A stretch of 64,000 nt of DNA from a bacterium (GTDB lineage: Bacteria; Zhuqueibacterota; QNDG01; JAFGCO01): NCBI GenBank assembly GCA_016932575.1, contig JAFGCO010000017.1, forward strand, positions 1-64,000, in the 5' to 3' direction. The notes under the pieces were generated by a model. It saw only the letters and a program-made list of their open reading frames with translations, was not told the DNA's origin and did no database searches. This document shows positions 16,014 to 31,361 of the stretch, piece after piece. A program made the position numbers and the translations under genes. Position 1 is the stretch's first letter, and the number at the start of each line of letters is the position of its first letter.

Positions 16014-16042
16014 TTGACAATTTAATAAAGTTTCCCTATGTT
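16014..16042 (+). promoter_or_regulatory. Strong sigma70-type promoter of the surface-apparatus operon
   Basis: TTGACA (16014-16019), a 17-base spacer and TATGTT (16037-16042). The -10 box overlaps an upstream in-frame ATG at 16038, which argues that translation starts at 16083 instead. The preceding AT-rich stretch may act as an UP-like element. Confidence 0.6.
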
Positions 16043-16082
16043 TTTAAAAATCAGTCATGTGTATCCTTTGGAGGCCTTTCAT

Positions 16083-19000
16083 ATGAAACAGGGAAGGTGG
16101 ATTTCTTTTTTATGTGTTATGGTCGTTCTCTGGCCGTTTTTCAATAATATTCATGCACGTGAACGAAATTTTTATATACAAGCACGAAGATTGGATAATC
16201 CGAAAAGAACGATCTTGCCAGATCCGTATAAAGATACGTTGACTGTGTGCGAGATGCTTCCGATTGAAGTTTTTGTTGTCTTTGAGAATAAAGATGGTGA
16301 ATCCTATGAATGCAGTCTGGTTTATGAAGATAATGTTGATCTTCCTTTATACTTTGGAGAATGGCAAGATATAAAAATAGTCTCAAATAAAAAAGAGCCT
16401 GTGGATACGCTTCGGAATATTCTTTATCTCCGGCCGAAGCAGCCGGGCTATCTCGAATTTGAAATTTCGGGACGCCTGACAGAGATATGGGGCAGTACAC
16501 GATATAATAGTAAGTATTCTCTGACGTTTCAATTATTAATTAACGAAGCAGATTCCAGTATGGTGCCTGTTTTGATGCCGGATTCTGCAGAAGCCGCATT
16601 GGGATATGATTCGGGCAGTACCAAAACCATATCCTGGAAACCGGCCACAGGATATGCTGACGGATTTTCACAGGAAGCCTATGCCTTTTCAACCAATGAT
16701 CCGAGTACTCTCTTAGAATCGGCCCGTCGTCTTTATCGTTTGTCCGGTCTGGGCGTAAGAAAAACCACTTTTGAAAATCTTAAAGACGGTGTGGAGTATG
16801 GTTATTTTGCAAAAGTGGACTTTATAACAGATAATGGCCATGTTTCTGTTTATTCAGATCTATATAAGTGTACTCAGGACAATACACCACCTGCAATTGT
16901 AGCAGAACCGATTGTCGTTCCTGAACCGGATGGATACCGGTTATCATGGGACGCTGTTGCGGATACTGTAAGTGGTGTAGACAAATATGTGATCTACCGG
17001 GCATCTGATACGGGTGCTGAAATGCCGGTTGATACTCTTCAATCCAACGGCGAGCCTTTTTATATATGGACCGATGAAGATGTTGATGCTACCATCAAAT
17101 ATTATTATCGTGTGCGTGCAGTGGATCGCGTTGGAAACGTCGGTGAAGGTATTCGAACAAAGGCAGTCGATTCGAATGCAGAATTGCCAACAACCCAGGA
17201 AAAATCTTATCCGGAAGAAGAGCTGAACGATGACAGAGAAGTCAAATATGTCGCCAGTTCAATGGATACGATTTCGCTTTTACATCCCATCAATCTGGAC
17301 AGTGTCCGGGTTATTTCAGTCCGCGATGACAAAGCCTTTTTTACGCATCCGTCTGACTTGGATATGCGTGTATTCGACAGTCAAATCATTACTGCACCTT
17401 TTCCTCCCTTTTGGGTATTCGATTACGGGTATAAAGGGCAGATACAAACACAATCCGACGGAATGGTTGAAAAAGGCCGGGGCAGAATGATAGATTTGAA
17501 TTTTGTGAATGGCCATACTTATTATCCAATTATTATTTATTACTATAGGCACAACAGAACCGTTATCGATTCACTGATGCCGCGTGTGATGGATTGTTAT
17601 CCTCCCGAAGATGTTCGTAATGTCAATGTACAATCTTTAATCACCGGTGAAGAAAGAAATTATACACAATGGAAAATGCAGCTTTCGTGGGAAAGACCGG
17701 AGCGGGATCAGGGAAGTCCTTTAACAGCATTTCATATTTATCGCCGTCTGGGTGATACAGCGGAATTTTTAAAAATCGCTGAACTGGACGATAAAAAGAT
17801 TTCATATATTGATGAAAGTCTGAAAACTCTGAGCAATCCAGCGAATCCGTTGGCGGCATATCGTGTTGTGGCAATTGACAGTGTCGGGCATCAGCGTGAT
17901 GTAAACACGTGTGCATGGGAAGGATCAGACAGAGTTTTGAATGCACCAGAATTCAGTTTTATTATCAGGTCTTCTTTTGAAACACTGATTCGCGATACCC
18001 TGTATACACATGCCGATTCAGTGAATTTGGCATTTCAGAATTTTGACTGGTCTGCACCAAACCAGCTGATTGTATCAGTCAATGATCAAAGCCGTATCGT
18101 GCTGAATCCCAAAACGGGCTTGGTACCCATTGCATTGGATACGGCCGCTTTTACTTCGGTCATTCGACTTCGCGCAATATACAAGGGAGGAAGGTCGAGC
18201 CTTTGGTCTGAACCCATGATTGCAGTGCAGGATACGGTTCCGCCTTCTGTGCTCAATGCCCAAAATTACCCTGATTCATCATTTGGTTATATCTACCTTC
18301 AATGGGATCGTACGTCAATGGCTGTGGACAGGTATGATATTTTCAGATCAGCGGATGGAAATAAATTTTCCAAAGTTGATACAGTGCCTGCCAGCAGGGA
18401 TACACTCAATTGGACAGACCAGGATTTATTAGACGCCTATCATTATTATACATACAAAGTACAGCCTTATGCAAAAACAGGCCGCCAGGGACCGTTTTCC
18501 AATGAAGACAGTGACTTTTGCAATCGTCCCCCTGTTATTTATAAGCATTCTGTGAAAGACCGTAACAATGGACAATTTGAAATTCAGATCATATGGAATA
18601 GGGGATGGCCTGTAGGTGTTTCCAACAGTTTTGTCACCGATGTATATATTTATAAAGACTATTTGAATCAGGCACTGTTGCCCGGAGTTGTTTCTACAGA
18701 ACCGAGAGACACTTCGTATGTATTTTATGATGCGTTTTTACGGCATAATTATATTTTTCAGTTACAGGAAAAACTGGATGATGATTCACTGAACCGATCC
18801 AGCGGCCTTTCCCTGCCATATACAGTTTCATTAAAAAAGATTGAAATGGAGGCTTTAACCCAGCCGCATAAAAAAATCTTTTTGGCCTGGGATCATCAGG
18901 TAACAGATACTTTGGATGTTTCTGCTTTCCATCTGATTCGGTCTGAAGATAATCAAGTGGGGCTTGACACGCTTCTTTCTCCCGATCAGTATACATTTAT

Positions 19001-20459
19001 GGATCAGGATATGTCTTTAAAGCATAATCATTTTTATACATATCGATTGGTGGCGCTCAATCAATATCATCAGGTATTGGCGGCCAATGATACAACAGTA
19101 TTGTGCGATTCGGGTCGCGTATATATTCCCACCATTGATACCATGCCGCTGTACTTTAATCAGCGAGTGATTCCGATTTGCTGGTATTGGGAGAAAAATG
19201 GAGCCGTCGACACGACAACAACCCGGGGTGCAAAAAATCTGATTTTACAGATCAGTACCAAATCCAATTTTCCCTTGAGCCCGGCAGGACAGACCGTTAC
19301 GTATGAATTTGCGGCCAACGCAAAGGAGCGATGCGGTAATTTTACTATTCCTGAAAATGCCGGTAATGTAAACACTCAGCTTTTTATCCGTATGTATGCC
19401 CAGGATAAATGGGAAAATCCGGTCCCTTTAATTGAGTCAAATCGCCAGACCACAATGTATGATGCAGTCGAACCTCTGCCGGTTGATTCTTTTAAGGTTG
19501 CACAGGTCCGGTCTCTGGATATCGCAAAAGATACTGTGGTGGTTCAATTAACATGGGATGATTACAGTCTGCTGGATGACAATGATTTGATTTATAATGT
19601 GACTCAATATCGTATTCTTCGCAAAGCGGACGGTCAGGAGACCATTGCCGGAGAAAAGACTGCAGTATTTCAACAGATGTCTTATTCATTTTTAGATACC
19701 GTGCAGAATCGCCGCTATTCGTGGCGTCTGGTATCCGTTGATGCGGCAAATAATGAAACCACCAACGGTTGGATTCAAGCCCCGGTATACATTGAGACAC
19801 CGGATATATCAAGTTTAAATCCTTTAGGCTTTCGCTCCTGCAAGGTTCAGGGTTTATCAGATCATGTTCAGGAATACACTGTGGAAATTGCGATGTTTGA
19901 AAATCATTTCAAACAGGCATATGAGTTGGATGATGAGCAGTTGGATTTTCTGCTTTGCCGCAGTCCCTGGCTTCCCGTTCGGCAGGATACATTTTCCTGT
20001 ACATCGGGGTGGGGTGAATACTTTAGTATGGATACGACCTATTTTCGTATCAAGGGCAGATATGGCGAGGATTGGGAAAGCGGATGGTCTGATGTTAAAA
20101 TATATGATCAGAGCATGGATAAAGAAGGGGGTGAAAGTGGTATCCTGTCAGAATCCGGAATACCCGATCAGTTTGTGATTTCACCGAATTATCCCAATCC
20201 CTTTAATCTGGTTACTTCTATCCGATACGGATTGCCAGAAAGCGGTCATGTCATGATTCGTATTTTTAATTACAGAGGAGCGCTTGTGCGAATTCTGACG
20301 GATGAAGATCAATCAGCCGGTTTTCATTGCTTAAACTGGAACGGAATCAGTCAAATTGGGACATTGGCTGCAAGTGGCGTCTATGTATGTGAAATACGGG
20401 TTGAAACCGAAACAGGAGTCCTGCATCGATCCCGGATGAAAATGATGTTATTGAAATAA
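16083..20459 (+). CDS. Giant secreted fibronectin-III protein with C-terminal sorting domain
   Basis: 1458 residues. The signal peptide is MKQGRWISFLCVMVVLWPFF... with a GGAGG Shine-Dalgarno 8 bases before ATG 16083. A series of Fn3-type beta-sandwiches follows, seen in repeated blocks of the type V-D-x-Y-x-I-Y-R...TFxDxx(L/V)...YxYRVxAVD (for example around residues 275-375, 545-615, 735-805, 950-1015 and 1150-1235). The end (about 1365-1458) is a FlgD-like/type IX-like sorting domain: NYPNPFNL, IFNYRGALVRIL, LAASGVYVCEIR. It is the first gene of a nine-gene operon that also encodes an outer-membrane PorV-like protein and an ExbBD-TonB motor. It is likely the main cell-surface or released product. 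No enzyme domain was recognised. Confidence 0.85.
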   Translation: MKQGRWISFLCVMVVLWPFFNNIHARERNFYIQARRLDNPKRTILPDPYKDTLTVCEMLPIEVFVVFENKDGESYECSLVYEDNVDLPLYFGEWQDIKIVSNKKEPVDTLRNILYLRPKQPGYLEFEISGRLTEIWGSTRYNSKYSLTFQLLINEADSSMVPVLMPDSAEAALGYDSGSTKTISWKPATGYADGFSQEAYAFSTNDPSTLLESARRLYRLSGLGVRKTTFENLKDGVEYGYFAKVDFITDNGHVSVYSDLYKCTQDNTPPAIVAEPIVVPEPDGYRLSWDAVADTVSGVDKYVIYRASDTGAEMPVDTLQSNGEPFYIWTDEDVDATIKYYYRVRAVDRVGNVGEGIRTKAVDSNAELPTTQEKSYPEEELNDDREVKYVASSMDTISLLHPINLDSVRVISVRDDKAFFTHPSDLDMRVFDSQIITAPFPPFWVFDYGYKGQIQTQSDGMVEKGRGRMIDLNFVNGHTYYPIIIYYYRHNRTVIDSLMPRVMDCYPPEDVRNVNVQSLITGEERNYTQWKMQLSWERPERDQGSPLTAFHIYRRLGDTAEFLKIAELDDKKISYIDESLKTLSNPANPLAAYRVVAIDSVGHQRDVNTCAWEGSDRVLNAPEFSFIIRSSFETLIRDTLYTHADSVNLAFQNFDWSAPNQLIVSVNDQSRIVLNPKTGLVPIALDTAAFTSVIRLRAIYKGGRSSLWSEPMIAVQDTVPPSVLNAQNYPDSSFGYIYLQWDRTSMAVDRYDIFRSADGNKFSKVDTVPASRDTLNWTDQDLLDAYHYYTYKVQPYAKTGRQGPFSNEDSDFCNRPPVIYKHSVKDRNNGQFEIQIIWNRGWPVGVSNSFVTDVYIYKDYLNQALLPGVVSTEPRDTSYVFYDAFLRHNYIFQLQEKLDDDSLNRSSGLSLPYTVSLKKIEMEALTQPHKKIFLAWDHQVTDTLDVSAFHLIRSEDNQVGLDTLLSPDQYTFMDQDMSLKHNHFYTYRLVALNQYHQVLAANDTTVLCDSGRVYIPTIDTMPLYFNQRVIPICWYWEKNGAVDTTTTRGAKNLILQISTKSNFPLSPAGQTVTYEFAANAKERCGNFTIPENAGNVNTQLFIRMYAQDKWENPVPLIESNRQTTMYDAVEPLPVDSFKVAQVRSLDIAKDTVVVQLTWDDYSLLDDNDLIYNVTQYRILRKADGQETIAGEKTAVFQQMSYSFLDTVQNRRYSWRLVSVDAANNETTNGWIQAPVYIETPDISSLNPLGFRSCKVQGLSDHVQEYTVEIAMFENHFKQAYELDDEQLDFLLCRSPWLPVRQDTFSCTSGWGEYFSMDTTYFRIKGRYGEDWESGWSDVKIYDQSMDKEGGESGILSESGIPDQFVISPNYPNPFNLVTSIRYGLPESGHVMIRIFNYRGALVRILTDEDQSAGFHCLNWNGISQIGTLAASGVYVCEIRVETETGVLHRSRMKMMLLK

Positions 20460-20545
20460 CATTTCTGATTCAATATCGGTCCATGAGAGAAATATATACA
20501 GGAAATAATATATCATTTGTCAAGTTGCTTCAGGGAGAATTATTT

Positions 20546-21616
20546 ATGAAGAATCGGGCGATTTTTATCGGGTTGCTCTTTGTTGCAGTTCATGTGTTTG
20601 GATTCTCACATCAAAACGACGCAAAGCTGGCCTGGCAAACGCCTGCTCATATCGAAGCTGTATTGATCGAGTTGATGCTGGAAGTCGACCCGGAACTCCC
20701 GGTTCCGGTGCTGGATCATGAAAAACCATTTACCCGGGGACTGAACAATACCGTCACCTGGATGGACAGCATGGATGCAGTTTACGAACAATTGCTGGAC
20801 ATGCAAATGACAATTCAGTTTTGGGCTGTTGAAGCCCGCATTGCAGGTATAGATACGGTTTGGGGATTTGTTGACGGACCTGAACGTTCCGCGGCATTTT
20901 TAAATTTACCGGAAGGGATTGGCATAGAGTACAGGCTTCGTTACTACGCGATAGAAGCTTCAGGGACAATGCATATCAGTGACTGGTCCAGAGCGGAGAT
21001 TTCCGTTCAGGATGCGTCCAGACCTGAAATATTAACCTTTGATATCCTTCAGTTACAAAATATTGGCGATAATCCTTGGGTGCTGGGACCACAAATTGAG
21101 GTACATGTTCAGGCCATGGATACAGACGGGCAAATCATGCAAATTGCTATTCAGGAAATTGGTGATGAAGTGGATCGTGTTCTTTTTGATGATCTGGATG
21201 CTCATCCCCGTACAGTTATTGATACAACTTTACAATACACTTTACTGACGGATCCGAATATGCCGCTGACAATCAAGGGCTGGGTTGTGGATGTCGCAGA
21301 GTTTTATTCAGATACACTGGAAATGCAGTTTTTCTATATGGCTTCTGATCCGAAAGTTGTCTGCTTTCCAAATCCGTTTGTTCCATATCAGGATCATTGT
21401 ACGGTCATAAAAATTGAGAATGAAGAAGCGCAGGAAGCCAAAATATATGATCCCTTCGGTAATCTCATCAGAATACTGCACAAAAATTCACTTTCTGATA
21501 TGGCATTTAAATGGGATGGAACGAATGAACAGGGACATCAGGTGGCAAGCGGAGGCTATTTTTGCATAATCAATGATGATCGGGATTTGTATTGTAAAAT
21601 CGCTGTAATCCGATAA
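20546..21616 (+). CDS. Secreted protein with FlgD-like C-terminal sorting domain
   Basis: 356 residues from ATG 20546, which has AGGGAGA 7 bases upstream and opens a clear signal peptide (MKNRAIFIGLLFVAVHVFGF). A longer frame from 20483 lacks both. The middle is probably one or two beta-sandwich domains. The end has CFPNPFVPYQ, KIYDPFGNLIRIL, KWDGTNEQGHQVASGGYF, i.e. the same sorting-type domain as the preceding giant protein. It probably acts as an accessory surface component. The specific function is unknown. Confidence 0.75.
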   Translation: MKNRAIFIGLLFVAVHVFGFSHQNDAKLAWQTPAHIEAVLIELMLEVDPELPVPVLDHEKPFTRGLNNTVTWMDSMDAVYEQLLDMQMTIQFWAVEARIAGIDTVWGFVDGPERSAAFLNLPEGIGIEYRLRYYAIEASGTMHISDWSRAEISVQDASRPEILTFDILQLQNIGDNPWVLGPQIEVHVQAMDTDGQIMQIAIQEIGDEVDRVLFDDLDAHPRTVIDTTLQYTLLTDPNMPLTIKGWVVDVAEFYSDTLEMQFFYMASDPKVVCFPNPFVPYQDHCTVIKIENEEAQEAKIYDPFGNLIRILHKNSLSDMAFKWDGTNEQGHQVASGGYFCIINDDRDLYCKIAVIR

Positions 21617-21635
21617 AATCAATGCATGGTGAACA

Positions 21636-23663
21636 ATGAAAAAACGAATGATATATTCAGTGGTTATTGCCCTGCTTATTGCGGGCACACGTTCTTTATG
21701 CTCATCAGGAGATGCCGGTCAGCCTGGTGCATTTTTGCGATATGGTGTGGGAGCAAGGGCTATGGGGATGGGGCGTGCTTTTGTAGCTATTGCGGATGAT
21801 GCCAGTGCTGTGTACTGGAATCCGTCCTGCATGCTGGAAGCTGAACGTGCTGAGCTGTCTTCGATGTATTCAAATTTGTATTATGACAGCAGGTATGCAT
21901 ATATTGGGCTGATTCTTCCCCGCTTACTCGAATCGGCAGAAAATCCTTGGCTGAGGTGGTTTTTTGGACCTGATGTCTCCTGGGGTGTGGGATGGACAGG
22001 ATTAAGCATGGTGGGTTTTGAGCAACGGACGCGATATAATGAATACCTGGGTCAGTTTGACATGGGTGAGAATGCCTGGATGTTGTCATGGGCAAAAGAA
22101 AGGGTGGGTCAATTCGGGATTCTCCGCGCAGGAATCACTTATAAAATAATCAATCAGCAATTTACAGGATTAAACAATCATGTCATGACTGTCGATGGCG
22201 CAGGTCCGGACTGGTCTAATGGATTGGATATCGGATTGACATTTCGACCCATTCATGCTCCTGTATTTCGTGTTGTTTCTCTAAAATATCTATTGCCCCT
22301 TCAATTGGGTATGAGCATTCAAAATCTGGTTCAGCCTGGCTGGGATAAAGTTGAAGGAGCCAGTCATCATTTTCCGCGTGTATACCGGTATGGATTTAGT
22401 TATCGTTTTATTTTGCAGGACTGGATACCGGAGGCATGGAATTTCAGATACAAATTGGGGAATATGGCTGTTCTTTTTGCTTTCGACAGGGAACATTATT
22501 CAGGTGCCGATGCGGGGACATATTTTGGTATGGAAGGTCAAATTCCGATTACTGCTCTGAATGTCTGGTTGCTGCCACGATTTGGTGTGAACAATCAAAC
22601 TGAAGGAAGATCCCTGGGATTCGGCTTTTCAATGCCATTTTCTTCAGCTGCTTTCAAATTGGATTACGTTCATACATCCCATCCCGTTTTGGAGGGGGAT
22701 ACACGTTTTTGTTTGTCTGTTCAATTTCGTCATCCTCAAAATGCCGGTCATTTCCAAAAGCGCGCTCATGATGCATCCCTGAGCAAAGAAATGCTGCGTT
22801 ACGATCATCTCGTGCTGTCAAAATATCCGAATGAGTATCTTGAAAATGCTGTAAATGATATCGCCGCGACCGCCGACCGTCCTTATGAAAAACGTCTTTA
22901 TGCCCTTGTGGGCGGCATGCGGCATGCCGAACTGCTGCTGGAAGATGCGAATCTTCTCCTGCGAAAAAGGGATATTGTCGGTGCCCGTCGAAAAGCCCTT
23001 GAATCATCACGAGCATATGCTCCTAATTTTCTTCAAACAGAGAATTATCTGACCGGTGATCAGATGATAGATTATGGAGAAGCGCTTATTATCTCCGGTA
23101 AGATGCGGGATGCCGTCACTGTACTGGAAGAGATTGAAGAACCGACAATCCGTGCGAATTATCTTTTGGGCACCGGATATCAGGGGCTCAGCGACAGTCG
23201 TGCTATTGAGGCATTTAACAGCGCTGTCAATCAGGTGAAACCCGATCAGAATGATCTGGTTGCGCTGTCTTACTTGGGATGGGCTGAATCACTGGTCAAA
23301 GATAAACAATATCAGCCTGCCATGATGGCACTTTCCAGTTTGTTAAATTATAATGCTATTGAATTAGGCGAAGATTATCCGCGTTTTCCAATTTTCGAAG
23401 ATCATTATATTCAGGATGACGCAATGTTCTTAATGGGAATTACTCAAATAATGGCAAAGAATTATCAGGACGGTGTGTCAACGCTTTATAAGACGCTTCG
23501 ATATTATCCGGTATTGACCTACGGAGAAACGTCCAATCAGCTTATTGATGAGTTAACCATTGCTCTGGAACGCAAGGATTTTGATCGTTTAGATACACTG
23601 GCAAATGATATGCTTTTATCCTATTATTCACGGCATGATCCTTCAAACCGATTTTTTGAATAA
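21636..23663 (+). CDS. PorV/PorQ-like outer-membrane protein fused to a TPR domain
   Basis: 675 residues. After the signal peptide, residues 30-380 match the PorV/UPF0164 pattern (GAFLRYGVGARAMGMGRAF, then DDASAVYWNPSCML and a beta-barrel). In Bacteroidota type IX systems PorV shuttles sorting-domain cargo at the outer membrane. Residues about 390-675 form alpha-helical TPR-like repeats (EALIISGKMRDAVTVLEEI, ALSYLGWAESLVKDKQYQPA), a periplasmic extension not found in canonical PorV. It lies 19 bases after a sorting-domain protein gene, so it may handle export or anchoring of those proteins. Confidence 0.8.
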   Translation: MKKRMIYSVVIALLIAGTRSLCSSGDAGQPGAFLRYGVGARAMGMGRAFVAIADDASAVYWNPSCMLEAERAELSSMYSNLYYDSRYAYIGLILPRLLESAENPWLRWFFGPDVSWGVGWTGLSMVGFEQRTRYNEYLGQFDMGENAWMLSWAKERVGQFGILRAGITYKIINQQFTGLNNHVMTVDGAGPDWSNGLDIGLTFRPIHAPVFRVVSLKYLLPLQLGMSIQNLVQPGWDKVEGASHHFPRVYRYGFSYRFILQDWIPEAWNFRYKLGNMAVLFAFDREHYSGADAGTYFGMEGQIPITALNVWLLPRFGVNNQTEGRSLGFGFSMPFSSAAFKLDYVHTSHPVLEGDTRFCLSVQFRHPQNAGHFQKRAHDASLSKEMLRYDHLVLSKYPNEYLENAVNDIAATADRPYEKRLYALVGGMRHAELLLEDANLLLRKRDIVGARRKALESSRAYAPNFLQTENYLTGDQMIDYGEALIISGKMRDAVTVLEEIEEPTIRANYLLGTGYQGLSDSRAIEAFNSAVNQVKPDQNDLVALSYLGWAESLVKDKQYQPAMMALSSLLNYNAIELGEDYPRFPIFEDHYIQDDAMFLMGITQIMAKNYQDGVSTLYKTLRYYPVLTYGETSNQLIDELTIALERKDFDRLDTLANDMLLSYYSRHDPSNRFFE

Positions 23664-23674
23664 TACAGGATGTT

Positions 23675-24841
23675 ATGGTGAAGAGAGACTATTCTCAAAA
23701 TCATTCGTACTTTAGTTTAAAAACAGCTGATTTAAAACTGCTGCGGATTGCTTGCAACCGTCTGATATTTATAGGTAGCAGTTTTATATGGATAATGTTT
23801 ATTTTTACAGGATCTTTTGTGTCCATCCATGCGAGTGTTCAGTATGAGGACATAAAAAATTCTTCCATTGTACTAACTGCGCCCGGCAACCATTACCAAC
23901 TTAAATCAAACACCGTGGTGTTTCAATGGGAGATGAATCATATTTCAGATTCCATTCAATTTATTCCTGAATATTATGAAGTCATGTTCTGGTCAAAGCA
24001 TCGTGATTTTAGTATGGTCAGAACTGTTTATCCCGGAGAAACGAATCGTGCGATGCTTCGCATCATGAATGCTTCCAGCCGTTTTAAAAGGCATGGCCGA
24101 TATTATTGGCAGGTTCATGCTGTTACCCAGAATGGACAGCGATTTAGGTCGGATGTTCGTGAGTTTATTATCCCTGTTCCCAAACAAATGCAATCTATAC
24201 TGCCGGCAATGTTTCCCTATGCAATCAAGTGGCAGCAGACCAAGCGACTGAATGAGGGTGATTTCAAACAGTTAGTTAATTCAGCGTACCCCAAAATCCA
24301 TTTGCAAAGTCATTCTGATTTATGTCTTATTTTCCGCCAGCCATTTATTGGCAATTATAATTTGGATTTGGAAGAGCATTTTCTGTTTAATTCAAATGTC
24401 GGTCTCGGAGGCGGCCTGATGATTCGATGGCGGCTTTATGAAAATTTATATTTTGCGCTCCATCCGGCCGGACGTCTGGGAGTATGCTGGTATGCAACAG
24501 GACTCGAACGTTTTTCAAGTCTGCGTTACGAAACATTTACGGGATGCGATTTTATTATCAATCCGAAAGGTTATGTTTCATCAAATATCCGTTGGGTTCC
24601 TGTTTATCGTTTCCACTATACACTTAAAGATGATGGATTTCGTGTTTTTGAGGGAAGAGGCTGGGAATGGGGAATTAAAATTGTGATTCCCAGAACCATC
24701 ATGACACCTTTCAAAATGCTGGGCATTGAAATGGATTTTGAACGGATGCCCATTGAATATACGTACAGCAGAATTAAAGATGATTATACAGGTGTGACAA
24801 TGCCCACCCAGGAAATTGGCATTAGTTTTTTATTTCAATGA
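23675..24841 (+). CDS. Exported protein with Fn3-like domain and barrel-like C-terminus
   Basis: 388 residues, 11 bases after the PorV-TPR gene. The N-terminus is unusually long and basic before a hydrophobic segment (about 28-52), which could be a signal anchor or an uncleaved signal. Residues about 65-165 look Fn3-like (VVFQWEMNHI, RYYWQVHAVTQNG). From about 225 onward, alternating strands ending in ...TQEIGISFLFQ suggest a small outer-membrane barrel. No family recognised. The operon position suggests a structural part of the same envelope apparatus. Confidence 0.6.
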   Translation: MVKRDYSQNHSYFSLKTADLKLLRIACNRLIFIGSSFIWIMFIFTGSFVSIHASVQYEDIKNSSIVLTAPGNHYQLKSNTVVFQWEMNHISDSIQFIPEYYEVMFWSKHRDFSMVRTVYPGETNRAMLRIMNASSRFKRHGRYYWQVHAVTQNGQRFRSDVREFIIPVPKQMQSILPAMFPYAIKWQQTKRLNEGDFKQLVNSAYPKIHLQSHSDLCLIFRQPFIGNYNLDLEEHFLFNSNVGLGGGLMIRWRLYENLYFALHPAGRLGVCWYATGLERFSSLRYETFTGCDFIINPKGYVSSNIRWVPVYRFHYTLKDDGFRVFEGRGWEWGIKIVIPRTIMTPFKMLGIEMDFERMPIEYTYSRIKDDYTGVTMPTQEIGISFLFQ

Positions 24842-24862
24842 AATGGATAAGGAGATCATTTC

Positions 24863-26179
24863 ATGGTTTATCAAGCCAGATGGTTGAGTTTCGGATTCAT
24901 TTTATTGGGCGCAGCATATGGATTGCTTATTGCCCAAGATCAGTATCAACCGCATATTACTGCTGTTGACCGCCAAATTGACAAGGATATAATCGGTGTC
25001 CCGCAATCTTTTGATTGTCACATCACATGGGACGTGGTGGAGCATAAGGATGGACGATGGATACCTTCAAAAACCAAACATTTTAAGCATTTTCAGATTC
25101 AGTGTTTTGAAGAAGAAACGCTGTTTGATATGAAAGAAAAAACAGCGCAGGAATCCTATTCCTGTCAATTTGAAAAATTGAAACCGAGTGTTCAGTATCG
25201 ATTTGCTGTTTTGGGTATTACAGGATCGCAGGACACTGTCCGTTCGGAAGTGGCAGAGGTGGTCACAGGTCATTTAAGCGCTACCGGCGCAGAGCCGAAA
25301 ATTCAGTGGTATCATCGATTGCCGATCCTCAGTGGCCGGACACCATTGCAATTGGTCGGGCGGGAGAAATTTTATGACAGGGCAACAGAAGCCGGAAAAA
25401 TCGCTTTTTGGTTAATCTGGTGGTTTTTTCTTGCAGGTATTCTGATTTGTACGCAATGCTGGCGTTATATGCGTATGTCTCAAATATTTCCAATGGACCG
25501 AAGCTTAGGTATTGGACACGGATACGATGCGATTTACCAAAGGAATCGTTCGAAAGGATTTCAACGTATTCTGGATGAGTGGAAGCAAATCATTGCTTTG
25601 GCAAATAAAAAGGTACGAGATCATCTGGCAGGAAGGGAAAGTCTGCAGTCTCTTGAAGTTGAGGGAGCCGGAGCCAAATTCTGGCAGGACTGCGGTGCAG
25701 ATACAATGAATGATCTTATTAAACGAATTGATGAATACAAAGGCTATCCGACAACAAAAATATTTAGATCCGGTATGCAAAATCATGAAATCAATGGTTT
25801 TCACTGGATGAAGGTATCGGAAGAGGTAGATCGCGCCATTGAAAACAGGGCTTCGTCTGAATTGGATAAAATCCGTCGAAAAAGTTTCGTTGACTGGCTT
25901 TGGAATCTGGGAACATTTGCCCCTATGATCGGACTTTTTGGCACGGCGACCGGTATTTCAAGTGCATTTGGAAATCTTGAACGTTTGTCTACCGATACAG
26001 AGCAGATGCAGATGGTACAAGAGCTGGCAGGCGGTATTTATGAAGCACTTTGGACAACCATTGAAGGCCTGGCCGTCGGATTTTTACTTATGCTTATTTT
26101 TCATTATTATCAAAACAAACTCAATTGGATATATTCAAAATGGGAAGAAATTTTTGTTGATTTGACCGAAAGACTGTAA
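24863..26179 (+). CDS. MotA/TolQ/ExbB proton-channel protein with N-terminal periplasmic Fn3-like domain
   Basis: 438 residues. It has a cleavable signal peptide (1-24), an Fn3-like periplasmic domain (about 30-140), and TM1 near 172-195 (FWLIWWFFLAGILICTQCW). A long cytoplasmic loop (about 200-345) precedes the two conserved channel helices: WNLGTFAPMIGLFGTATGISSAF and EALWTTIEGLAVGFLLMLIFHYY. ExbB/TolQ proteins form the pentameric stator that passes protons with ExbD/TolR. The extra exported domain is unusual for the family. AAGGAG precedes the ATG. It is followed at once by two exbD-like genes. Confidence 0.88.
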   Translation: MVYQARWLSFGFILLGAAYGLLIAQDQYQPHITAVDRQIDKDIIGVPQSFDCHITWDVVEHKDGRWIPSKTKHFKHFQIQCFEEETLFDMKEKTAQESYSCQFEKLKPSVQYRFAVLGITGSQDTVRSEVAEVVTGHLSATGAEPKIQWYHRLPILSGRTPLQLVGREKFYDRATEAGKIAFWLIWWFFLAGILICTQCWRYMRMSQIFPMDRSLGIGHGYDAIYQRNRSKGFQRILDEWKQIIALANKKVRDHLAGRESLQSLEVEGAGAKFWQDCGADTMNDLIKRIDEYKGYPTTKIFRSGMQNHEINGFHWMKVSEEVDRAIENRASSELDKIRRKSFVDWLWNLGTFAPMIGLFGTATGISSAFGNLERLSTDTEQMQMVQELAGGIYEALWTTIEGLAVGFLLMLIFHYYQNKLNWIYSKWEEIFVDLTERL

Positions 26180-26193
26180 TTCAAGTATTTAAA

Positions 26194-26790
26194 ATGGCAT
26201 TTAAAAGGATATATGAAAAAAAAGGGCTGAGTTTAACCAGTCTTATTGACATCATTTTTCTTCTGTTGATATTTTTTATGGCGACTCTTAATATGTCGTC
26301 GGTCGTTTCCGACCGGAATCAGGGCATTTATACGCAGAAGAAATTTGATTTGCCTGAGATTCGCAATCGAAAAACAGCACCGGTACAGGAAATTTTGTAC
26401 ACACTGATGCTGCAGATCGAGCATGAAGATCCTCAGAATGTCAATAGTCCGCTGGTTGTTTATGCCTTATGGCCTTCCAGAGGCGACTCGATGAATATTT
26501 CTCAAGCCAAATTACAGGCCATTGAAAAAAAGAGATATGCCTATTTTTTACCTGAATCAGAGCGCATATCGAATCCGAAGATACCTGATGTTTCACCTTA
26601 TGTGTTCATTTCTGATGCGATTAATGGATACGCCGATCGATATTATCGATCGGCTGATCCTAAAAACCATATTGAAGTTCGCGCTATTCAGGAAACCAAA
26701 TATCAAATTATCAATCATATTTTAAATACATGCGCATCGCTGGGGGATCGTATACAGCATATTTATATCCGGACCTTGTCAGGAGAATAA
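26194..26790 (+). CDS. ExbD/TolR-family protein, first copy
   Basis: 198 residues. One TM helix near the N-terminus carries the conserved proton-carrying aspartate, Asp19, in SLTSLIDIIFLLLIFF. The periplasmic part (about 45-198) is long for ExbD and ends with the usual alpha/beta motif (EVRAIQETKYQIINHILNTC). It would plug the pore of the ExbB-like pentamer encoded 14 bases upstream and convert proton flow into motion. It differs clearly from the second copy, so the pair may form a heterodimer. A perfect 23-bp palindrome lies at 26632-26654 within the gene. Confidence 0.85.
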   Translation: MAFKRIYEKKGLSLTSLIDIIFLLLIFFMATLNMSSVVSDRNQGIYTQKKFDLPEIRNRKTAPVQEILYTLMLQIEHEDPQNVNSPLVVYALWPSRGDSMNISQAKLQAIEKKRYAYFLPESERISNPKIPDVSPYVFISDAINGYADRYYRSADPKNHIEVRAIQETKYQIINHILNTCASLGDRIQHIYIRTLSGE

Positions 26791-26797
26791 AGCGGAT

Positions 26798-27379
26798 ATG
26801 CCTTTTAAAAAGAAAAGTTTTAAAAGAGACGCTGTTGAATTGGTTTCTCTTATCGATATGATTTTCATTTTGCTGGTTTTTTTTCTGGTCACAAGTTTCG
26901 CCATTAAAATGCCGCTTCAAGAAAGATCGTTAATGGTACCCACGCCAGAGAATAAACCCGGTCGTGCACAGATTTTTATTCAGATTGTGAATGAAAATGA
27001 AGTTTTTTGGCTGGATCAATCTGCCAACCGCGATGTCAAAGCCTGGGATCAGGAACTGTTTTATCTTTTGGGCGATCAGAAGAATCGTGAAATTATCAGT
27101 CGGTTGGTTCGCAGGAATACGTTGTCCCCGGGCGCTTTACAACAGAAATTATCCAGATTTGTATCGAATGCTCAATTACATCGTAACCGAACTTATTTTA
27201 CAGTCGTTCGGTGCCCTGATAATATGCCGTATGTCATTGTTATGAAAATTCTGTCTTCATTATCCCAGGCAGATAATATTGAGTATGGTTGCCTCGGAGG
27301 GACATTGCAGGATTTGTTAAAATCCAAAGTGACAACTGGCACTTATCAAGGGAAAACAGTCCTGAAGCTGGATTTTTAA
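26798..27379 (+). CDS. ExbD/TolR-family protein, second copy
   Basis: 193 residues, 7 bases after the first copy. The single TM helix has Asp20 in ELVSLIDMIFILLVFFLVTS, followed by a periplasmic domain (about 45-193). The proline-rich stretch VPTPENKPGR after the helix is like the flexible linker of TolR/ExbD. Two exbD genes after one exbB gene are known in some TonB systems of Bacteroidota and Proteobacteria. Here they sit in an operon with surface proteins, not next to a TonB-dependent receptor gene. Confidence 0.87.
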   Translation: MPFKKKSFKRDAVELVSLIDMIFILLVFFLVTSFAIKMPLQERSLMVPTPENKPGRAQIFIQIVNENEVFWLDQSANRDVKAWDQELFYLLGDQKNREIISRLVRRNTLSPGALQQKLSRFVSNAQLHRNRTYFTVVRCPDNMPYVIVMKILSSLSQADNIEYGCLGGTLQDLLKSKVTTGTYQGKTVLKLDF

Positions 27380-27479
27380 AATATTTTGACACTAAAATAA
27401 AGAAATGAATCTCATCGTGATGATTTTCGTGTGACTTCAAATCTTTGTGGTCATTTAATCAGGAATTTTAAAAGATTCA

Positions 27480-28070
27480 ATGAAGCAGAAAAAACCAATT
27501 ATTCGAAGACGATGGATCCTTTTCGGGTTGGCTGTTTATACGCTTCTCAGGGAAGGATTTTTTGCATATCAACATTACAGAATGAGTGATCTTCCAAAGG
27601 ATTCGATATTGATCCCTCCGATGATTTCAGAAATTGAACCCCCAATGAGGCCCGGACTCAACGGTATCTGGATTATGGGGGCGCCTGTCAAGACACTCTA
27701 TTTTGAAGTCAATCCGTATCATGCTGGGTCGCGGTCTTTGCAATGGAATGAGCTGCCTCCCAATACGCGGGTTAAAATCAACTGCTATGTGGATCCGTCA
27801 GGTAACTTGCTGATCGACTCTTATGAAATTGAGGGGCATCCGGCAGCGGGAAATCATATTATCGAGACACTTCGAACCTGGAAATATCGGAATTTAAAGA
27901 CAGGTGAAATTAATTTTGATTTCAAACTGCCTTCACGCAGAGAAAAGCTGACCATTTATACAAAACTCAGACGAAAGGCATCGATCCCGGATAGTCTGGA
28001 AATTTTTGATGGCCGGCTTTATAACATTGATGGCATTGAGGATAATGAACTAAAAATCGAGAAAATGTAA
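27480..28070 (+). CDS. TonB-like energy transducer
   Basis: 196 residues. A short basic N-terminus and one TM helix (about 12-28) are followed by a proline-rich segment (IPPMISEIEPPMRPG) and a C-terminal domain with a TonB-C-like pattern: VDPSGNLLIDSYEIEGHPAAGNHIIETLRTWKYRN is the usual V..DG.V......SG...LD..AL.A...W.F of TonB (quoted here with the family pattern, not an alignment). TonB spans the periplasm and pulls on outer-membrane proteins. The linker is short for that, so it may contact a periplasmic partner instead. It follows the ExbD pair by 100 bases. Confidence 0.55.
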   Translation: MKQKKPIIRRRWILFGLAVYTLLREGFFAYQHYRMSDLPKDSILIPPMISEIEPPMRPGLNGIWIMGAPVKTLYFEVNPYHAGSRSLQWNELPPNTRVKINCYVDPSGNLLIDSYEIEGHPAAGNHIIETLRTWKYRNLKTGEINFDFKLPSRREKLTIYTKLRRKASIPDSLEIFDGRLYNIDGIEDNELKIEKM

Positions 28071-28103
28071 ATGAATACTAAAAATATCGTATTGGAGCTT
28101 TCC

Positions 28104-31100
28104 ATGAAGCTGATCAAAGGCATGCAGGGATTCCTTTCATTGATGATTTGTCTCATGTTAATCATCTCTGGGGTCTCTTTTGGACAGTTACCTGAAGAGA
28201 AAGTGGTTCTGTCGGAAGACTTGTCCGAGGCATTGTCATATTTTGATCGCAGTGAATATGAAACGGCCATTGTCCGTCTTATTGATCATGCGAAAAAATT
28301 TGCTGCTGAAAGCGGCATTGCCTATTATTTTGTTGCAGAGAGTCATTACAATCTGGCTTTAGCCGCAAAGATATCCAAAGAAGACAGAATACAACATCTT
28401 GAATCGGTCATTATATATCTTAACTCCGCTGTGGAAAACGGATTGGAAGAGAGCTATCCGGAAAAATCAGATGAAGTCGTTTACAAACGAGCATGGGCTA
28501 ATTTTCGGTTGTCTGAACTGACTTGTCAACCTTTGGAAAAATTATCAATCGCATATAACAATTTCGATTTTATTGCAGGAGGCCTTGAAGATCATAAAAT
28601 GACGCCTGAAGGGGCATATATGTCTGCAGAAGTGCTCATTCAGAAATCCATGTTACGACGGATAGAACTGTATCGGTCTGTGAATGCCGGAGAAAGAATC
28701 TCCATTGCAAAAGATATTATACAGGATTTACGAATAGCTCAAAAACATCTTGAGGATGTTGTCAAGTCTTCTATTGCCTCTCAATATTTACAGGCCTGTG
28801 CGAAGTTTCAACTGCAAAATATCCAATTGATTCTGGCAAAAACCAACGCGAAGTTAAAGCCGGAGGTTTATCAGGAAGTTCGGGGAGGAGAATCCGCTTC
28901 TAACGGCCGGGAAGCCGCCGTAAAATATCTGCAATCGCTTCAGTTTGAAACAGTCAATCAAAATCTTAGCCAGGCTATGGCCGTGCAATTTCATCCTCTT
29001 ATTCAATATTCGAAAACATATGCCACTATTTTCGAATATTTAATTACCGGTGAACAGGTGTTTGAAGTTAATATAGCTTTGGATTCCCTGCCAAGACCCC
29101 GATTCAGACAGGATTATCTTTTTTTTCAGGCCAATCGTGACCATAAAGCAGATATTCAGGAACAGCGATTTATTCAGCTTGCAAAAACAAGCGAGAGTTA
29201 TTATTACGAAGTCTCGACTATTTATCCTGAAGCCCTGTACTGGCTTGGATGGGTTCAATACATCAGTGGTGAAAAAGACAGCAAGAACAGTTTTCAGTCC
29301 TATTTATCGGTCACAGGAAATGACGCCTGTGATCTTCGCGTAAATTTTCTCCGGGAAGATGCACAGATGCGTTTATTTTACCTCACTTTTGATCATAACG
29401 CGACAAATCCAGGCCAATTAAAGTCTTTGAAACAGGCACTGAGTGGTTTTAATCCAACAGTACCTTCTATTAAGAAGGAAAGAAATCTGTTATTGTCTCT
29501 GACCCGTGTTGGATTGGGAGAACAGGCCGGCTCAATATTCAGCAATGTGGATGAAGTGGTGGAATTGATACGATATATGCTGCCAAAGGCGGCTTTGGTT
29601 TATGGTCAGGAGCGTGCTCAGTACTTAAAATACCTCGATTCGCTTCTGAAAATCACACAGTATCAAAAATCGGATCAAACAAAATTTTTTCAGGGTATTG
29701 TTGCATTTCTTCGTGCAGAGATACAACCGGAAGACCAGCAGGTTCTTAAATTTTACAAACAAGCCGCTGATATCATGGAGACACTTGAAAAGGGGAATAA
29801 TAAATATCAGCATGAAGCCAGGTATATTATTGCCAGAGCGTATTTTGATGCAGCAAAGCATGAAAGTGATAAGAATGAAAAGGAAAAGTTGTATCGAAAA
29901 GCCAAAGAAATTTTTGTTGAACTGATTCAGAGACAGAAGAGTTTGCGGTCACTTTTTTATTTAGCCGAGATTTTTATCCACGAGAATAACCATTTGGCTG
30001 CTGCTGAGTGTTATCAGTCGGTTATCAATACAACGTGCCGGATAGACGGTGGTGAATTCTGGTGTGCCAGTGCGCGTGCCGGTTTAAGAAATTCCCGAAA
30101 TCGGGGAGATCTTGGTGAAATCCGGGATATACCAATTGATAACGTTGAATTTCCCGAGAATTTAAACAAAGTGGATAATGAAGAAATTACTTTGGAACAA
30201 TTTGGTTACCAGAAGTATGTGATGAAAAAACTTTGGGCTGAATCGATTGACCGACTGATTCAATTTGGATTACCGAACCGCATGCTGTATCCAGCAGAGA
30301 ATCGAATCAGCGATTCGAGATTTGCCCAGAGAGATTTTGGCCAGCAAACGGCTGGCTTGAGCGAACAGATTATTGGTTTAAAATCAGGGCTGGTGTTGAA
30401 TGTCGTACTTCCGCAGGATTTACTGGCAAGTGAACAGGGCGTCCTTGTTTTTTATAATGGCAAGCTGCTTCCGAAAGAGCGGGATGGTTACCGGGTAGAA
30501 GACATTCCGCTTAATGAAAAAGCACTTTTGGAAATTAGAAATGATCGATGCTATGTCTATAGAAAAAAATTCCGTTTTACACAACCCAGGCAGATGCATT
30601 TGATTATTCCTTTGATTCAAAAATTCCGATTCAGAAGAATCAATCATATTCCGGATATTGAAAAACATACGATTCATTTCCCCGGCCGGCTGGATAAAAA
30701 TACGCTTTTCGTAACCGGACATCAAATTTCTGAATCTTCAGAGTTGTATTATCATTTTAATGAGAAGCTTAATTTACGAGATCTGACTATCGCCGGAGAC
30801 CGGATTTTAGCAGTTAAAGACAGTGCAACATACCTCCTGCAATATCATCTCGATGGTTCCATTCCTGATGACGCTAGAGATCGAACATTACCTCTTTATT
30901 TTCCGGCTTCCAATTACGCCTTGAAATCTCCGGAAGGCGTCGCTGTGGATTCATCAGGTCATATCTATATTACGGATGTTGATCAAAATCAACTGTTCAT
31001 TTTCGATTCGAACGGCCGATTCCGGTCTGTGATTGGAAATATAGCCACAGTACAAAATGACACAATTCCTAAGGTTTCCTTTTTTAGACCAAAGCGTGTT

Positions 31101-31361
31101 GCACTTGCGGAAGATTATGAGGGTGTGAATATAGGTGATACAAGGGTTTATCGTCCAGTTTTACTTTTTGTAACGGATCGAACAGGCATTCATGTTACCA
31201 ATCAGGACGGAGATGTACTGGAACATATACCCAATACAGAGGATCAGAAAGGCATTTTTTACGATTTAATCGTTCAGGGTTATGGAAAATCCTGTCAATT
31301 GTTTGTCTGGAATCGTCAAGCAGGGCATGTTGAGTGGTTTAAGGCAGAACCGGTGAAATAA
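28104..31361 (+). CDS. Large exported TPR protein with C-terminal NHL/beta-propeller-like region
   Basis: 1085 residues from ATG 28104, which has TTGGAGC upstream and begins a clear signal peptide (MKLIKGMQGFLSLMICLMLI). An ATG at 28071 directly after the previous stop is the alternative. Residues about 30-700 are helical TPR-like repeats, for example ALSYFDRSEYETAIVRLIDHA, KAKEIFVELIQRQKSLRSLF and YLAEIFIHENNHLAAAECY. Residues about 890-1085 look like propeller blades (SPEGVAVDSSGHIYITDVDQ is the NHL pattern). It is the last gene of the operon. It is probably a periplasmic scaffold linking the motor to the outer-membrane parts; this is inferred from position only. Confidence 0.75.
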   Translation: MKLIKGMQGFLSLMICLMLIISGVSFGQLPEEKVVLSEDLSEALSYFDRSEYETAIVRLIDHAKKFAAESGIAYYFVAESHYNLALAAKISKEDRIQHLESVIIYLNSAVENGLEESYPEKSDEVVYKRAWANFRLSELTCQPLEKLSIAYNNFDFIAGGLEDHKMTPEGAYMSAEVLIQKSMLRRIELYRSVNAGERISIAKDIIQDLRIAQKHLEDVVKSSIASQYLQACAKFQLQNIQLILAKTNAKLKPEVYQEVRGGESASNGREAAVKYLQSLQFETVNQNLSQAMAVQFHPLIQYSKTYATIFEYLITGEQVFEVNIALDSLPRPRFRQDYLFFQANRDHKADIQEQRFIQLAKTSESYYYEVSTIYPEALYWLGWVQYISGEKDSKNSFQSYLSVTGNDACDLRVNFLREDAQMRLFYLTFDHNATNPGQLKSLKQALSGFNPTVPSIKKERNLLLSLTRVGLGEQAGSIFSNVDEVVELIRYMLPKAALVYGQERAQYLKYLDSLLKITQYQKSDQTKFFQGIVAFLRAEIQPEDQQVLKFYKQAADIMETLEKGNNKYQHEARYIIARAYFDAAKHESDKNEKEKLYRKAKEIFVELIQRQKSLRSLFYLAEIFIHENNHLAAAECYQSVINTTCRIDGGEFWCASARAGLRNSRNRGDLGEIRDIPIDNVEFPENLNKVDNEEITLEQFGYQKYVMKKLWAESIDRLIQFGLPNRMLYPAENRISDSRFAQRDFGQQTAGLSEQIIGLKSGLVLNVVLPQDLLASEQGVLVFYNGKLLPKERDGYRVEDIPLNEKALLEIRNDRCYVYRKKFRFTQPRQMHLIIPLIQKFRFRRINHIPDIEKHTIHFPGRLDKNTLFVTGHQISESSELYYHFNEKLNLRDLTIAGDRILAVKDSATYLLQYHLDGSIPDDARDRTLPLYFPASNYALKSPEGVAVDSSGHIYITDVDQNQLFIFDSNGRFRSVIGNIATVQNDTIPKVSFFRPKRVALAEDYEGVNIGDTRVYRPVLLFVTDRTGIHVTNQDGDVLEHIPNTEDQKGIFYDLIVQGYGKSCQLFVWNRQAGHVEWFKAEPVK

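Follow-up and report, generated by a model that had tools for sequence, protein, structure and literature searches.

A conserved ExbB-ExbD-ExbD gene module encoding putative type IX-exported surface proteins in several bacterial phyla

TonB and TolA of Escherichia coli engage their motors through a histidine residue in the transmembrane (TM) helix. The ExbB-ExbD-TonB and Tol-Pal systems resemble the locus described here, a nine-gene cluster within a 64,000-nucleotide stretch of bacterial DNA (the window), in the motor family, the proton-site aspartate, the TonB C-terminal fold and a gene order like that of tolQ-R-A-B. However, the cluster differs from both in its ExbB, which carries a signal and a periplasmic domain, in its two ExbDs and the short linker of its TonB-like protein, and in having neither a receptor nor Pal. 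Type IX secretion and Bacteroidota gliding (SprA, PorV, and PorL/PorM, the latter equivalent to GldL/GldM) share with the cluster the surface proteins with a C-terminal sorting domain (CTD), the PorV-family barrel and a proton motor, and the window's genome also has SprA and PorU. In this case the difference lies in the motor, which in the cluster is made up of ExbB, two ExbDs and a TonB-fold protein, PorL/PorM being undetected. In Flavobacterium, substrates of type B are held by a cognate shuttle that is encoded just downstream of them (PMC12618676).

No published account of the cluster was found in the literature searched, which mostly did not extend to subscription papers, and the module is apparently undescribed so far. 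The few trans-envelope proton motors described to date thereby gain a widely conserved member, in carrier phyla known mostly from metagenomes, and such a motor is linked directly with putative type IX substrates. How secretion or surface movement is powered in T9SS-bearing phyla where PorL/PorM go undetected also becomes a testable question.

Organization and conservation of the cluster

A preliminary description of the window had proposed nine same-strand genes, mostly with short spacing, behind one promoter-like site. All nine open reading frames (ORFs) were found on the plus strand, at or near the positions first assigned to them, and the gaps between them were indeed mostly short (23, 19, 11, 21, 14, 7, 100, and 0 nt). 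The probable operon spans approximately 16083 to 31361 on this single strand; purA ends 229 nt before it, and a lipid kinase gene follows at a distance of 334 nt. Its features are as follows.

16014..16042, plus strand: promoter-like site TTGACA-17-TATGTT, plausibly positioned 41 nt ahead of the likely gene A start at 16083
16083..20459, plus strand: gene A, secreted multidomain Fn3-like surface protein of ~1458 aa with a C-terminal T9SS/FlgD_ig-type sorting domain
20546..21616, plus strand: gene B, second secreted protein, with a FlgD_ig/PorZ-type C-terminal domain
21636..23663, plus strand: gene C, PorV/PorQ-family outer-membrane barrel with a C-terminal TPR region
23675..24841, plus strand: gene D, 388 aa, predicted Fn3/Ig-like domain and ten-strand outer-membrane barrel
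24863..26179, plus strand: gene E, ExbB/TolQ-family proton-channel subunit that begins with a signal sequence and extends into the periplasm with an Fn3-like part
26194..26790, plus strand: gene F, ExbD-like protein 1, with the proton-site Asp (LID) conserved
26798..27379, plus strand: gene G, ExbD-like protein 2, with the Asp conserved
27480..28070, plus strand: gene H, short TonB-like protein predicted to have one TM helix, a linker, and the TonB C-terminal fold
28104..31361, plus strand: gene I, exported protein of ~1085 aa with a TPR-like region followed by an NHL beta-propeller

The gene A ORF opens at 16038, its probable start being 16083, where GGAGG precedes the ATG and a signal peptide follows. 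Similarly, the gene B ORF opens at 20483 with a probable start at 20546, and that of gene I opens at 28071 with a probable start at 28104, as in the preliminary description. The promoter-like site lies where expected ahead of gene A, but could not be told apart from the chance density of such sites, since 65 were counted in 18 kb versus 50 ± 7 expected; the evidence for a promoter at 16014-16042 is therefore weak.

The comparison of gene order across related genomes gave a strongly positive result. The search for gene E covered 147 genomes and yielded full-length relatives in the window's taxonomic order and elsewhere in its phylum. The module was found in about 30 of the 82 genomes of this phylum, which is probably KSB1-like to judge from the titles of same-order contigs, and an eight-gene core recurred in several phyla. 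This core, A-B-C-E-F-G-H-I, comprises two CTD surface proteins, the PorV-family barrel-TPR protein, ExbB, two ExbDs, the TonB-like protein and the TPR-propeller protein. Its order was repeated over the 32 regions examined, some of them cut by contig ends, and was kept across many families at roughly 25 to 45% identity, while the flanks differed outside the closest relatives. In the window's taxonomic order, C and E are separated by gene D, which hardly occurs elsewhere (one weak match, L049). Judged from sequence, the nine genes form one real unit; the synteny rules out a chance run of genes.

The same loci occurred in sequences titled candidate division KSB1, Deferribacteres, Caldithrix sp., Zixiibacteriota, and Delongbacteria. 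In a second phylum, a profile search found gene E in 15 of 17 genomes, and the core order was present at all eight loci examined, H being left unlabelled by the profile at two of them, although at one of these an ORF of matching size, itself without a label, occupies the position of H. Gene E was also found in one Delongbacteria genome, where the module (L136) keeps the core order but contains three consecutive ExbBs; in the window's phylum, the module of one family has two ExbB-like genes (L060, L061, L063, and L065). In 23 of 25 genomes, H and E shared a locus, and in the two others, which are fragmented, H lay on another contig. In G049, gene H is split across two frames (C5:1984604-1985133), and at two loci (L051 and L055) gene C is divided into separate barrel and TPR ORFs.

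Predicted products of the nine genes

The proposed sorting domains of the surface proteins were recovered, as C termini of the FlgD_ig/Por_Secre_tail/PorZ type, on both A and B. The FlgD_ig match of B reached 27.3 bits (cut-off, 27), and that of A was below threshold, a second-phylum homologue of A exceeding the cut-off of TIGR04183 (type A sorting domain). In PHROGs, A had only a tail-fibre-like match, which was judged to reflect the Fn3 repeats. An additional FlgD_ig domain lies at 698-841 of the window, at the end of its first ORF. The third gene proved to encode the expected PorV-family protein with TPRs. Its match to PorV_fam (2.4e-17) is under the cut-off, a second-phylum homologue being over it (118.1 versus 90); the gene C product is far under the PorV equivalog, and the relative passes the family cut-off only. 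The TPR is clear in the homologue at locus L067. Family searches gave no useful match for the products of genes D and H. An AlphaFold model of D, with an alignment of relatives as input, showed an Fn3/Ig-like domain and a ten-strand barrel (pLDDT, 76.5) and matched a designed 10-strand barrel (Z, 16.6), OpcA (14.1), and the CbhA Fn3 module (11.8).

The motor assignment was likewise upheld, E having MotA_ExbB and a weak fn3 domain, and F and G an ExbD domain each. The E product matched PF01618 (MotA_ExbB) at 73.9 bits versus a cut-off of 22.9 (1.3e-20), with an N-terminal fn3 (1.4e-4), and includes a signal sequence and about 150 periplasmic residues. By hydropathy, nearly all homologues have the signal and the helices TM1 and TM3, while TM2 scored in only some; the TM2 and TM3 motifs are conserved. 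In a tree of motor domains, all the E rows formed one clade (support, 99/99) apart from five ordinary ExbBs, two of which adjoin SprA. Some E branches are long, including those of the extra ExbB-like copies (L060, L061, L063, L065, and L136), so placement inside the clade is unsure. F and G matched PF02472 over the cut-off (2.9e-9 and 1e-10, respectively), and the proton-site Asp was present in the TM helix of all their aligned homologues. By family and key residues, E, F, and G belong to a motor of the ExbB/ExbD type in which the two ExbDs are distinct. The two being unlike suggests a heterodimeric axle, which could also hold for AglQ/AglS (PMC3169522) and for the pairs of TolR-like genes in PVC bacteria (PMC12204202).

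The label TonB-like for H had no family match behind it in the window's own protein; it was borne out by the fold and by a PF03544 (TonB_C) match in a single relative (4.6e-4). The AlphaFold model of H, again with relatives aligned as input (pLDDT, 88.2), has one TM helix, a linker, and the TonB C-terminal fold, and its top 12 VIA-align matches were all TonB/FusB C-terminal domains, with modest Z scores of 4.5 to 6.2, unrelated rows starting at 3.5. The model thus indicates a TM-anchored protein that ends in the fold of the TonB C terminus. The linker, which contains a conserved RPG motif, measures ~35 residues from the TM helix to the C-terminal fold in the model, in which a long periplasm-spanning linker is absent. 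Among 23 aligned sequences, no conserved His of the motor-binding Ser/His motif (SHLS) was found in the TM helix, and a TonB_C protein of the window's genome (C14), beside two ExbDs, is also without it. Ser/His occurs in the TM helix of TonB_C proteins that lie beside one or no ExbD (L101 and L102), and His is absent from those beside two (L103, L104, and the window's H). The product of the ninth gene had an NHL match of 26.3 bits (cut-off, 20) and a weak TPR, and its relatives gave TPR, NHL, and YbgF/CpoB-like matches.

Type IX secretion and the proposed function

The core type IX genes had been reported as absent from the window and the system, consequently, as possibly distinct. Elsewhere in the same genome, SprA (C6:97032-101261; 636 bits versus a cut-off of 200; SprA_N, 119.5 bits) and the PorU sortase (C6:284383-287616; 916 bits versus 420) are encoded, which rules out a reading free of T9SS. 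FlgD_ig matched 129 times in this genome at an E value of 0.001 or better, 105 times over the cut-off. Given SprA, PorU, and more than 100 CTD domains, A and B belong to cells with a T9SS export path, and a module that bears a motor and works with a T9SS is the better reading of the cluster.

SprA was present in all 81 genomes of the window's phylum searched (over the cut-off in 79), in most second-phylum genomes, and in Delongbacteria, and PorU was present in 10 of the 11 genomes tested, all three phyla being represented. The GldL/PorL and GldM/PorM profiles, which divergent forms could escape, gave nothing over the cut-off in the 81 genomes. These two profiles do match in genome G142, in which GldK, GldL, and GldM were over the cut-off and the SprA and PorU profiles had no match. 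Matches to GldK (PorK) in the window's genome were under the cut-off, and this family also matched in unrelated controls. Two relatives carry an ordinary ExbB-ExbD set, with TonB_C in L101, directly downstream of SprA and a 305-aa gene (L100:10705-11800 in G024 and L101:11058-12890 in G044). This set is a candidate for the T9SS motor of the phylum instead of PorL/PorM.

It seems unlikely that ExbB, the two ExbDs, and H replace PorL/PorM in SprA-dependent export, whether in general or for A and B only. The CTD proteins and PorV-family barrel of the cluster would suit such a role, as would the occurrence of SprA and PorU with no PorL/PorM profile match over the cut-off in 81 genomes. However, PorL/PorM may have diverged past the reach of the profiles, and the ordinary ExbB-ExbD next to SprA is a better candidate. 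Moreover, the module occurs patchily, in about 30 of 82 genomes, while all 81 genomes searched have SprA, and therefore it does not serve as the phylum's general T9SS motor; a universal motor was set aside, as most SprA-bearing relatives are without the module. TonB-type uptake, in which A and B would bind a polymer for import by C or D with energy from ExbB/ExbD/H, is improbable. An ExbB-ExbD-TonB-fold set does lie alongside outer-membrane barrels and surface proteins, but domain searches found a plug or TonB-dependent receptor domain in none of the nine proteins, and this lack of a receptor demotes the explanation; in addition, D is missing outside the window's taxonomic order. PorV-family barrels are not known to act as TonB receptors.

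A Tol-Pal derivative for outer-membrane upkeep would explain the order E-F-G-H-I, which is that of tolQ-tolR-tolA-tolB, I resembling a fused CpoB (TPR) and TolB (propeller). The best NCBIfam models were TolQ for E (4.4e-16) and TolR for G, a relative of I matched YbgF/CpoB at 5e-7, and a TPR-propeller-Pal fusion is known (PorE; PMC12204202). Nevertheless, every match is far under the equivalog cut-offs, a Pal/OmpA domain was found in none of the nine proteins, presence within the phylum is patchy, and two large surface proteins are attached wherever the contig extends that far, so that we regard this derivation as highly improbable.

Most likely, the cluster encodes a dedicated proton-motive force-transduction module that spans the envelope and serves two T9SS-exported surface proteins, putative adhesins. 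A and B would cross the outer membrane via SprA, and C, which follows the two CTD proteins directly, like the cognate shuttles after type B substrates, may receive and hold them. The ExbB-ExbD1/ExbD2 motor would work on H. Because H by itself could not reach across the periplasm, it would transmit force to the TPR region of C by way of I, an exported protein whose TPR and propeller make it the natural candidate for this link. Force on C might then displace, export, or assemble A and B at the surface. The parts fit the energised outer-envelope machine of the preliminary description, while its energy coupling is something we infer. We consider it more probable than not that the motor acts on the surface assembly formed by A, B, and C, in agreement with the gene order kept across phyla, the linkage of H to E, the single clade of E, the proton-site Asp of F and G, the TonB fold of H, the lack of a TonB-dependent receptor among the cluster proteins, and SprA and PorU in the carriers tested from all three phyla; the missing TM His of H, the modest Z scores of its fold match, and the absence of the module from many T9SS-bearing relatives count against it. 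As output, we favour that A and B are moved or assembled, their secretion being the main rival. More tentatively, the module could define a class of its own among proton-powered surface machines, common to at least three FCB-type phyla. Its motor, with two ExbDs, would drive adhesins that are delivered by the T9SS and held by a PorV-TPR barrel, with surface movement or fibre assembly independent of PorL/PorM and Agl-Glt.

Comparison with known systems

The TolQ-TolR-TolR-vWA transducer clusters are similar in their TolQ-like protein, two unlike TolR-like proteins, TPR gene, and transducer; the latter is there a vWA protein (PMC12204202), whereas none was found in the window's cluster, and surface CTD proteins are not described in that account (PMC12204202). 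With the Agl-Glt system of Myxococcus xanthus (AglRQS and the Glt core), compared by description, the cluster differs in its T9SS-type CTD proteins, PorV-family barrel, and TPR-NHL fusion, which are not listed there (PMC3169522). Also, GltG has an FHA part and the window's H has none. The window's genome contains another ExbB-ExbD-ExbD-TonB_C set, on the minus strand at 4707-15001 of L104 (G000:C46:30000-45000), next to two TPR proteins (1435 and 844 aa), a make-up that recalls the Glt core, with its large TPR proteins, AglRQS, and GltG. The nine-gene cluster itself shares with Agl-Glt one ExbB-like and two ExbD-like proteins together with a TonB-domain protein (PMC3169522), as well as large TPR proteins, outer-membrane barrels, and a core that is clustered in some bacteria (PMC3169522).
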